A stretch of DNA of 64,000 bases. Origin: Clostridiaceae bacterium DTU079. Lineage in GTDB: Bacteria > Bacillota > Clostridia > Acetivibrionales > Acetivibrionaceae. The position numbers and the translations under genes were made by a program. Under the pieces are notes generated by a model. That model ran no database searches, was not told the DNA's origin, and saw only the letters and a program-made list of their open reading frames with translations. Where the stretch lies: the NCBI GenBank assembly GCA_001512505.1, contig LFSC01000041.1, forward strand, positions 1 through 64,000. The letters run 5' to 3'. Shown one piece after another: positions 58,078-63,930 of this stretch (position 1 is its first letter; every line of letters begins with the position of its first letter).

Positions 58078-58108
58078 AAATATTGTGGGAAAATTATTCA
58101 TATAAAAA

Positions 58109-58133
58109 GTGGTATGACATTTTGTCATACCAC
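58109..58133. terminator. Perfect bidirectional terminator
   Basis: GTGGTATGACA and its exact complement form an 11-bp stem with a 3-nt loop. On the minus strand it is followed by TTTTTATAT, on the plus strand by AAATATTTTTTT. It can end both the zinc-ribbon transcript and the minus-strand peptide transcript. Confidence 0.85.
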
Positions 58134-58266: not shown

Positions 58267-58371
58267 TTATCTCAAACTATACCATGATGCTTCTGCAATC
58301 GACACAAGTTGACATACCACCATTGCTCCAATTGTCAAAGCAACTAATAACTTGGCTTTTAAGTTTTTCAT
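58267..58371 (-). CDS. 34-residue secreted peptide precursor, too short for usual gene finding
   Basis: ATG 58371 has GGGAGG 8 nt upstream. The peptide starts MKNLKAKLLVALTIGAMVVC and continues QLVSIAEASWYSLR. Two or three lysines, a hydrophobic core and AEA before S look like a type I signal peptide. Cleavage after AEA would leave SWYSLR. It could be a signalling peptide, a toxin-like hydrophobic peptide or a leader peptide; the family is not recognised. It lies downstream of the GGGGAGT array and the stem-loop, and is followed by a perfect terminator. Confidence 0.6.
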   Translation of the reverse strand: MKNLKAKLLVALTIGAMVVCQLVSIAEASWYSLR

Positions 58372-58413
58372 ATACATTTCCTCCCTTAATTATATTATTA
58401 TAGTGTATTCATT

Positions 58414-58468
58414 ATGAAACGGGCTTGGTCCCCATCGGCTTTAATAGCTGAAGGAAACCCCGTTTCAT
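58414..58468 (-). promoter_or_regulatory. Stem-loop upstream of the small peptide gene
   Basis: ATGAAACGGG and CCCGTTTCAT form a perfect 10-bp stem around 35 nt that contain AGCTATTAAAGCC and GATGGGGACCAAG. It ends about 30 nt before the peptide's ribosome binding site. It has no T run, so it is not a plain terminator. I could not match it to a known riboswitch. Confidence 0.5.
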
Positions 58469-58498
58469 ATTAATACGCATCTTTCTCTTTAAAGAAGT

Positions 58499-58512
58499 TG
58501 TGTACGTACACA
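58499..58512. promoter_or_regulatory. 14-bp perfect palindrome, possible operator
   Basis: TGTGTACGTACACA is fully symmetric, as expected for the site of a dimeric DNA-binding protein. It lies between the GGGGAGT array and the stem-loop. Confidence 0.4.
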
Positions 58513-58560: not shown

Positions 58561-58923
58561 ACTCTCCCTAAATTCTTTAATAATGTACTCCAATTCTTTA
58601 ATAATGTACTCCCTAAATAAAATTCTCTATAAAATTTCCACTCCCCAAAACGCTACAATTTACTCCCCTAATAAGTTTTTCTAAATTACCTACTCCCCAA
58701 AAACTTTAAACTCAACTCCCCTAAAATTTTTCATTGTAATTTTTCTACTCCCCAAAATGTTTAAAAACTCAACTCCCCAAAAAGTGCTCTTACATTTTTA
58801 CTCCCCAAAAACTTAAATAAATTACTCCCCAAAAAAAACTTACTTAAATTTTTTGATTCTAAATAATCCTTTTAAATACTCCCCGAAAAGTTTTTCTAAA
58901 AAGTCCGTTCCTCCTTACTCCCC
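58561..58923 (-). repeat. Array of GGGGAGT repeats in AT-rich spacers
   Basis: On the minus strand the word GGGGAGT occurs ten times, ending (plus coordinates of ACTCCCC) at 58640, 58662, 58692, 58715, 58747, 58772, 58800, 58824, 58878 and 58917. All have the same orientation, and most are preceded by TTTT or TTA. Spacings are 22, 30, 23, 32, 25, 28, 24, 54 and 39. Weaker copies occur at 58561, 58587 and 58608, the last two in a 21-bp tandem duplication (AATTCTTTAATAATGTACTCC at 58571 and 58592, quoted without its last base pair context). It encodes no protein. Confidence 0.85.
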
Positions 58924-59247
58924 GTGAAAAATATAACCAATTGACAATTAAAACGATACTTACAGTAAGATCTTACTTATAGGATAATAATCTTGAAATG
59001 TTGCAAGAAATGTTACGAGAAATATGAAGTATCTGTTGCAATAGCTTTTGTTATATTGCTATGGAAAACTTGTTTTCTATATTCTAATTATACAACGAAT
59101 TATTTGTAAAAAGAAGATAATAATTTTATTATTTTATTATAAAATATTAAGTTATAAAAGGGGTAATAATAAAAAAGGGGCAAATAGTGAATTTTTGAGG
59201 CAGCAAAATTAATATTGAAAGACAAAGTATTGGGAGATGATGATAAA

Positions 59248-62129: not shown

Positions 62130-62957
62130 TTAGAGCTTGAGAAGGCTTTCGATAATATAAAATAACGGAAACAGGAGAAGAAGAAGGGATTCAAACATAA
62201 CAAGGCGGTGCTCCGTTTGGTTTTGGCTCAATGAAGTATATAGCTCCGTAATTTCCTGAAGATCGTTAATCTTGCTTTGCAGAATTTTATAACGGTCGTT
62301 CATTTCAAAATATTCCATCAGGCTGTCATAGGTTTCTTTTCCCTTAATACTTTGTTCGGCGAGCATAGGCCGGTCTAAAACTCTTACACTGTTTATGCTG
62401 TCAAATTGAAACCTCAGTATTTTGGAAATTATAAGACAGGATTTCTTTCTATACCACTTTAAGCGGCCTTTTTGAAGGAAAACTATAAATTTTTCCGCAT
62501 CCCCCAAAAGCTCGGAAAGCTTTGCATCAAAGCTGAACATCTCCACCGATTTTGCCAGAACAATTGCTATAATATGATTAATATCGTCGGTATATTCAAT
62601 TTTTCTGTTAACGTTGCCGGTAAGGCTGCAGCACAAATCATCATCTATCTCCAGGGAATGGCTTTCATGGTATTTATAAAATAGGCTATAATCAATGTTT
62701 CCGATTATCAACTCAATATATTTCAAAAAGTCATAGATCTCATTGTTTGAAAAATTGACAAAGGAAATGCAGCCGTATTTAAAAAGATAAACAGACTTGT
62801 CTTCGGAATCGGTTTTCAATATTATATCAAGCTGCTTATCCTTAAGCACAATATATTCCTTCCAGCTAAAAGTCATTTGAGTTTTAAGAAAAGCTGCAAT
62901 CTTTTCCAAAGGAAGAGACGGTGCAACCTTATAGCATATAAAATACACATTTTTCAT
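62130..62957 (-). CDS. DUF155 (RMD1/YagE) family membrane protein, paralogue 1
   Basis: The 275 residues follow the DUF155 plan. An N-terminal alpha/beta region has KYGCISFVNFSNNEIYDFL, the middle is helical (VLAKSVEMFSFDAKLSELLG, then YDSLMEYFEMNDRYKILQSK), and one C-terminal membrane helix ends the chain (LLLLLFPLFYIIESLLKL). Family members occur from bacteria to mitochondria (RMND1) and are anchored by that helix; no reaction is known. It lies 74 nt downstream of its paralogue and is probably co-transcribed. Confidence 0.8.
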   Translation of the reverse strand: MKNVYFICYKVAPSLPLEKIAAFLKTQMTFSWKEYIVLKDKQLDIILKTDSEDKSVYLFKYGCISFVNFSNNEIYDFLKYIELIIGNIDYSLFYKYHESHSLEIDDDLCCSLTGNVNRKIEYTDDINHIIAIVLAKSVEMFSFDAKLSELLGDAEKFIVFLQKGRLKWYRKKSCLIISKILRFQFDSINSVRVLDRPMLAEQSIKGKETYDSLMEYFEMNDRYKILQSKINDLQEITELYTSLSQNQTEHRLVMFESLLLLLFPLFYIIESLLKL

Positions 62958-63031: not shown

Positions 63032-63856
63032 TTATCTTAATAAATCAAGAACCATAAGAACTATTTCTACCAGAATCAGCAGAACAATTATCCATTCCAC
63101 AAAAAGTCCTCTAATTGAATCGCTAATAGAGGAAAAACCTTTAATGATACTGTTTAGGATATCGGTTTTCTCCTTCAGTATAATATACCTGTCATTAAGC
63201 TCGAAAAACTCCGACATACGGTCGTAAATACTTTCTGCATCGCTGTTGGTCCATGTAATGTCCGGTTTGTCAAGAATCATTATGTAGGCTATGGTGTTGT
63301 ATTCATGACGAACAATTTTAGACGTTGTTTTTGCAATTTCCTTATTGCTGATATTTAACTTTCCCTTTTCCAGCTTATCGATCATGTTTTCCAATTTATC
63401 AAGGATGCTTTCAAGATGCTTTTCGGTCTTCTCCAACGCAACGGATTTGGCAATAACGGTTGAAACCAGCTCCGGATAAAAAATCTGAAATGACGGAACC
63501 ACCAAATACTTGTCGGTAAGTTCTATTTTAGCATTTTCAACCACTTGCAGCTCATAGTCATCCGAATATTCTTCATAATTATTGATATCGATATCGTCCT
63601 TGATTTTTTTCAAATACTTTAAAAAGACCTTTTCATCCTCAGTTGTGGAGTTGATAAAAACTATACTGCCGAAAGAAAAAACGAGAATTTCTTCATTCTT
63701 AAGTTTTTTTCTATGCAGTATATTGGACAGGATTTCTCCCTGTAATACCAAGGGCTCTTCCCAGGTGTATTTTTTTGGAATATTGCAATCGGCAGCGATC
63801 CTGTTAAGGTCTATTTCATTTGTTACGGCATAAGCTTTAAAAACCATTCTATCCAA
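63032..63856 (-). CDS. DUF155 (RMD1/YagE) family membrane protein, paralogue 2
   Basis: This has the same layout as the neighbour: FSFGSIVFINSTTEDEKVFL, VIAKSVALEKTEKHLESILD, YDRMSEFFELNDRYIILKEK and a C-terminal helix VEWIIVLLILVEIVLMVLDL. GTG 63865 lies inside the GAGGTG ribosome binding site; TTG 63856 (MDRMVFKAYAV) is better spaced, and ATG 63847 is a second alternative. The two paralogues have clearly diverged, so the duplication is old. Confidence 0.82.
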   Translation of the reverse strand: MDRMVFKAYAVTNEIDLNRIAADCNIPKKYTWEEPLVLQGEILSNILHRKKLKNEEILVFSFGSIVFINSTTEDEKVFLKYLKKIKDDIDINNYEEYSDDYELQVVENAKIELTDKYLVVPSFQIFYPELVSTVIAKSVALEKTEKHLESILDKLENMIDKLEKGKLNISNKEIAKTTSKIVRHEYNTIAYIMILDKPDITWTNSDAESIYDRMSEFFELNDRYIILKEKTDILNSIIKGFSSISDSIRGLFVEWIIVLLILVEIVLMVLDLLR

Positions 63857-63930
63857 GACCAACACCTCGTCATATTTTATCTATACCAGCTTGCAGCAAA
63901 GAAATATAGATTATTATCGTCATAAAAAGT

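Follow-up and report, generated by a model that had tools for sequence, protein, structure and literature searches.

What is the function of ten copies of one short word, all facing the same way, in DNA that codes for no protein? The words, GGGGAGT, are exact and lie on the minus strand in a single orientation, with the outermost copies at 58640-58646 and 58917-58923 of the window, by which we mean the whole 64,000-nt stretch of DNA that was analysed. Together they occupy 284 nt with a G+C content of 31%. Dinucleotide shuffles of a 310-nt stretch (n = 5000) contained the word 0.15 times on average and twice at most, compared with the ten real copies, and the expectation for the whole 64-kb window is 5.15. 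The ten same-way copies in about 280 nt reported in the initial annotation are thus borne out. In transcript order the start-to-start spacings are 39, 54, 24, 28, 25, 32, 23, 30, and 22; the seven values listed earlier were correct, but the two gaps on the 5′ side (39 and 54) had been omitted. The idea that the unit is a pair of words of about 53 nt holds in part: there are two clear pair units in the window, with a parallel unit of 18 + 53 = 71 nt in the related genome G002. The 3′ edge of the array is ragged, since decayed words follow it at about 58561-58620. The spacings modulo 3 are mixed, so that the words fall in all three frames; the array is non-coding, as had been claimed, and a protein-coding repeat was ruled out. 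A mobile element or a plasmid or phage origin was rejected as well, because the plasmid and phage collections held no similar DNA and the locus is syntenic in the family.

The peptide gene and the terminator that had been placed downstream of the array on the same strand are both real, and the array is framed by several other elements (Table 1). The first word lies 169 nt downstream of TATAAT (59092-59087, minus strand). The flanking genes on the plus strand code for a zinc-ribbon protein and SspH (sspH), and the terminator can also be used by the convergent plus-strand gene. On either side of the array stands a perfect palindrome; both are kept within the genus but not across the wider family. 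The upstream one, the single site of its type in the whole window, is exact in four genomes of one genus (G000, G001, G004, and G005) and has one mismatch in G003. The downstream one was found in G000, G003, G004, and G005, with a variant in G001; when up to two mismatches are allowed, 0.03 such sites are expected per window. Both look like sites for a dimeric DNA-binding protein or for self-dimerization of an RNA. The conserved hairpin is present in G000, G001, and G002, including G002 that has no peptide; its outer stem has paired (compensatory) changes, its folding energy is -19 to -27 kcal/mol, and it carries a CCAAG bulge. Elsewhere on the minus strand of the window, two adjacent DUF155 genes (RMND1/Sif2-Sif3 family) occupy positions 62130-62957 and 63032-63865.

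Table 1. Features of the array locus, in the order of the minus strand (window coordinates).
Feature	Position	Strand	Remarks
Putative promoter	59081..59110	minus	TATAAT at 59087-59092; promoter scan 10/12; the scan picks TTTACA-18-TAGAAT
Palindrome (A)AGTAAGATCTTACT(T)	58963..58978	no strand	close by, on the upstream side of the array
Array of ten GGGGAGT words	58640..58923	minus	exact matches; orthologous arrays in 14/14 family genomes
Decayed words AGGGAGT, TTGGAGT, AGGGAGAGT	58561..58639	minus	at the array's 3′ end; recognized by direct reading
Palindrome TGTGTACGTACACA	58499..58512	no strand	downstream of the array
Conserved hairpin GAAACGGGGTTTCC...GGGGACCAAGCCCGTTTC	58410..58472	minus	3/14 genomes; this locus only
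34-aa exported-looking peptide MKNLKAKLLVALTIGAMVVCQLVSIAEASWYSLR	58267..58371 (stop included)	minus	ORF 58371-58270, stop 58269-58267; full-length relatives in 7/14 family genomes
Intrinsic terminator, 11 bp, -15 kcal/mol, then TTTTTATAT	58109..58133	minus	equivalent in 14/15 loci

Is the array a peculiarity of one genome? We searched 14 genomes of the Acetivibrio family, to which the window belongs, for the locus with the peptide, sspH, clpS, and a pattern of three GGGGAG. A GGGGAG array in transcript orientation was present at this locus in all 14, in 15 loci altogether, A. alkalicellulosi having a second copy. The search of related genomes that the initial annotation had advised has thus given a conserved array. 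The number of exact GGGGAG words per locus ranges from 2 to 12: the window has ten, G002 twelve, G006 and G009 five each, G012 four, G001, G010, G011, and G013 three each, and the remaining loci two. GGGGAG is the sole G/C-rich hexamer with two or more occurrences in every one of the 15 loci. These loci were found partly through GGGGAG itself, but eight of them were reached by way of the peptide, sspH, or clpS genes. The arrays span three genera and two gene neighbourhoods, on the side of sspH in two genera (g1 and g3) and upstream of clpS in the third (g2). In 14 of the 15 loci TATAAT precedes the first word by 119-284 nt; an intrinsic terminator follows the last word by 102-538 nt, likewise in 14 of 15. 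A class-wide search (391 genomes) did not find the array outside the family save for one unrelated match. Array-like matches in other families (G047, G052, G014, and G271) were rejected as G/C-rich or unrelated by appearance.

The peptide has a signal-peptide character and a conserved ASWYRFR-like end at its C-terminus. It may be an exported signal or a membrane peptide, possibly an exported peptide that is processed. Its relatives occur in Acetivibrio straminisolvens, A. mesophilus, A. alkalicellulosi, a Herbivorax, and a Clostridium sp. MAG. The search with family models gave no significant match; one of six members of the peptide family matched NprX_fam with E = 0.031, below significance, and no receptor gene of the NprX/Phr pheromone type stands beside the peptide gene within the window. 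Seven loci have the whole peptide, among them G011 with CTT at the start position. Judging by codon positions, it is under purifying selection where intact: the changes are distributed 225:102:362 over the three positions, with an excess at the third, and 4:1:16 in the pair G000/G001. In the other eight loci (G002, G003, G006, G007, the second copy of G008, G009, G012, and G013) the frame is interrupted or has largely disappeared, and relics are recognizable in most of them. Read from these sequences, the peptide is ancestral at the locus and has been lost repeatedly in the family.

If the peptide has been lost so often, then we can ask: What happened to the words? They are present in all eight loci with a decayed peptide, and in G002 (L051, reverse strand 2053-2431) they have expanded to a six-fold tandem of the 71-nt unit with 12 words. 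Of the two GGGGAG in each unit, one lies in a hairpin and the other in the linker, so half of the 12 words lie within a strong hairpin. Words were compared with spacers in three peptide-dead genomes, the ones whose loci can be aligned well. In the pair G006/G012, where the peptide is a pseudogene, 29 of 30 word positions are identical versus 107 of 145 spacer positions, and among the G/C columns 24 of 25 versus 16 of 47 (p = 1.3e-7). Two further peptide-dead pairs had 23/24 and 22/24 identical positions in words versus 79/115 and 90/124 in spacers, and 19/20 and 18/20 versus 10/34 and 13/38 for G/C columns (p = 1.6e-6 and 4.1e-5); the three pairs share genomes and are therefore not three independent tests. 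Since the words are better kept than the spacers in genomes with a dead peptide, selection acts on them not only through the peptide. Equal decay of words and spacers, which according to the initial annotation would speak against the array, is not what these genomes have. Outside the three genomes the words are not better kept in some pairwise alignments, which are unreliable and join loci of different copy number. The part of the RNA that does the work seems to be the repeated word itself.

The 54 distinct occurrences of the word give the consensus TnGGGGAG(A/T). At position -2 there is T in 46 of them and A in eight, never G or C. We propose that the locus yields a single RNA, which would start near 59079, end near 58103, and be about 0.97 kb long here and less than that in most relatives. 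The array of these words would be its functional portion, and each word would be bound separately by a reader that recognizes this sequence. The likeliest reader is an RNA-binding protein, the alternative a small RNA with a CUCCCC segment. As the level of the RNA rises, it would draw the reader off its other targets by titration, in the manner of CsrB or RsmZ with CsrA and of CrcZ with Hfq. The ancestral RNA would have been dual-function, with both the array and the exported-looking peptide that was later repeatedly lost. The array is conserved in place and orientation, its words are selected independently of the peptide, TATAAT and a terminator frame it, and its copy number changes; transcription, reading at the RNA level, and titration are the parts that we infer. 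We give an even chance to a multi-site decoy (titration) RNA with the TnGGGGAG(A/T) array as its working part. The more detailed proposal is of a titration RNA specific to this clostridial lineage, with the new word TnGGGGAGW and a novel RNA-binding protein or sRNA as reader; this RNA would have arisen as, or from, a peptide mRNA and would now be becoming a noncoding sponge in several lineages. We hold this proposal tentatively, at somewhat short of an even chance. Against a sponge, some loci have just two exact words, which is few for titration.

At another site of the window's genome (L016:1501-1544), two GGGGAGTAATCTAA words stand 37 nt apart, a short way ahead of the start codon of a gene for an exported protein. 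This is a possible target leader; the pair is a 37-nt tandem duplication and so does not count as independent evidence.

The main rival places the same words in DNA, as direct-repeat sites for a transcription factor or another protein that controls the transcript or a neighbour. The words are indeed direct repeats with a sharp 9-bp consensus, and the perfect flanking palindromes of one genus would fit DNA-binding dimers. The word spacings have a weak tendency to multiples of 10.5-11, as expected of helical periodicity, with p of about 0.02-0.05, uncorrected and from related genomes that are not independent. Presentation of the words in hairpin loops, which had been expected from reading the sequence, was not supported as a general feature in comparison with shuffled spacers (combined z = -0.2 across loci; high only in G002 and G010). 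However, the words lie some 120-280 nt downstream of the conserved TATAAT, inside the putative transcription unit with its own terminator, and are never reversed although the neighbours differ between genera, where it is the putative transcript and its terminator that are kept. The spacings form a near-continuous series from 18 to 58, and structured RNA elements are kept in the transcription unit of the array in some genomes. A binding array in DNA is rather unlikely in our opinion, and we judge, without having computed it, that RNA is about three times as probable. The multi-site binding array suggested in the initial annotation is supported by its conservation in 14 of 14 genomes, its orientation, its framing by TATAAT and terminator, and the persistence of the words, and is most likely read as RNA.

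In another rival explanation the words form a cis-acting 5′ leader and affect only how the peptide mRNA is translated or how stable it is, for instance by serving as decoys of the mRNA's own ribosome-binding site. In every locus the peptide gene, or what is left of it, follows closely on the array, the ribosome-binding site of the peptide in G010 is itself TTTTGGGGAGG, and purifying selection on the intact peptide agrees with such a role. This explanation is quite improbable and largely refuted by the persistence of the words, with visible selection on them, in the eight loci where the peptide has decayed; moreover, G002 grew to its 12 words without a peptide.

If the words form a titration RNA, one candidate for its reader is CsrA; the initial annotation had already suggested CsrA-like titration. 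The locus would then be the clostridial equivalent of CsrB, with GGA-containing words that bind CsrA. Every word contains GGA, the layout resembles that of CsrB with many GGA words (2-12 per locus) on what would be a single transcript, and GGGGA stands in hairpin loops of G002 and G010. The csrA gene is present in 13 of the 14 genomes, which is a necessary condition only. But the CsrA consensus is ANGGA (RUACARGGAUGU; PMC7652899), and none of the 54 distinct words fits ANGGA: two bases before GGA all of them have G, never A. Nor would CsrA account for the GGGG and the upstream T of the word. Several of the hosts themselves have canonical AAGGA sites in their flagellin leaders. Beside csrA in four g2 genomes (G006, G008, G010, and G012), these leaders have canonical CAAGGAUG or CAAGGACG hairpins, the CAAGGA hairpin being accompanied by CAAGGAGG at the ribosome-binding site. 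CsrA is thus unlikely as the reader, judging by its sites, and we regard a CsrA sponge as a highly improbable identity for the locus.

The weakest explanation, which we consider extremely improbable, is that the words mimic Shine-Dalgarno sequences as ribosome decoys or stack their GGGG tracts, both of which had been suggested earlier: GGGAG resembles ribosome-binding sites and most loci have at least three GGGG tracts per transcript, but the base after GGGGAG is G in 0 of 54 words, which makes them unlike the Shine-Dalgarno sequence (GGAGG), none reaches GGGGAGG and the best anti-Shine-Dalgarno match, AGGAGG, is unused, while the G tracts are mostly separated by loops of 15-50 nt and a quadruplex would leave the conserved A, G, and upstream T without a role.

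Partner sRNAs and described RNAs were considered too. RsaE is a known family of C-rich sRNAs; the RsaE/RoxS model (RF01820) matched 0 of the 14 genomes, with the B. subtilis positive control matched, and RsaE was ruled out as the partner. The Rfam covariance models gave no match at gathering scores and nothing credible at E up to 5, on which ground a riboswitch or another known RNA was rejected, and a literature search turned up no paper describing an RNA from this locus. In a test for a type III toxin-antitoxin system (ToxI), no ToxN-like endoribonuclease gene was found after the array, where only the 34-aa peptide follows, next to the zinc-ribbon protein and SspH genes.

It remains to compare the proposed decoy RNA with known systems. 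RNAIII, which encodes delta-hemolysin, is an example of a dual-function RNA. Like such RNAs, the putative transcript of the locus would both regulate and encode a small peptide; the peptide here is unrelated and has been dispensable in evolution. CsrB provides the precedent for the layout (PMC7652899): CsrB/CsrC and RsmY/RsmZ likewise have many copies of a short G-rich word in loops and single-stranded linkers, an arrangement that is clear in G002. In contrast to CsrB and RsmZ, the word here is TnGGGGAGW rather than ANGGA and its placement in loops is not general; the family is clostridial, its ancestral form encodes a peptide, and the reader is a putative one. CrcZ of Pseudomonas, an RNA of 407 nt (about 0.4 kb), titrates Hfq with six A-rich sites, copies of a short word that mimic target sites (PMC4063720), whereas the word of our array is G-rich. 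SprY of Staphylococcus aureus is an sRNA from Firmicutes that sponges RNAIII by base pairing (PMC9266662). The equivalent partner here would be an sRNA bearing CUCCCC; unlike SprY, the array is multivalent, and no C-rich partner sRNA was found, the RsaE family being absent from the 14 genomes.

If the decoy RNA is real, clostridia have a multi-site titration RNA whose word is at odds with CsrA, to which such arrays usually bind. A novel RNA reader would then be indicated in industrially important cellulose degraders, a group in which little is known of global post-transcriptional control. With the peptide lost several times and the words kept, the family also gives natural snapshots of a coding RNA turning noncoding. 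In kind this RNA resembles the known titration RNAs; what is new are its word, its lineage, and its history from coding to noncoding.
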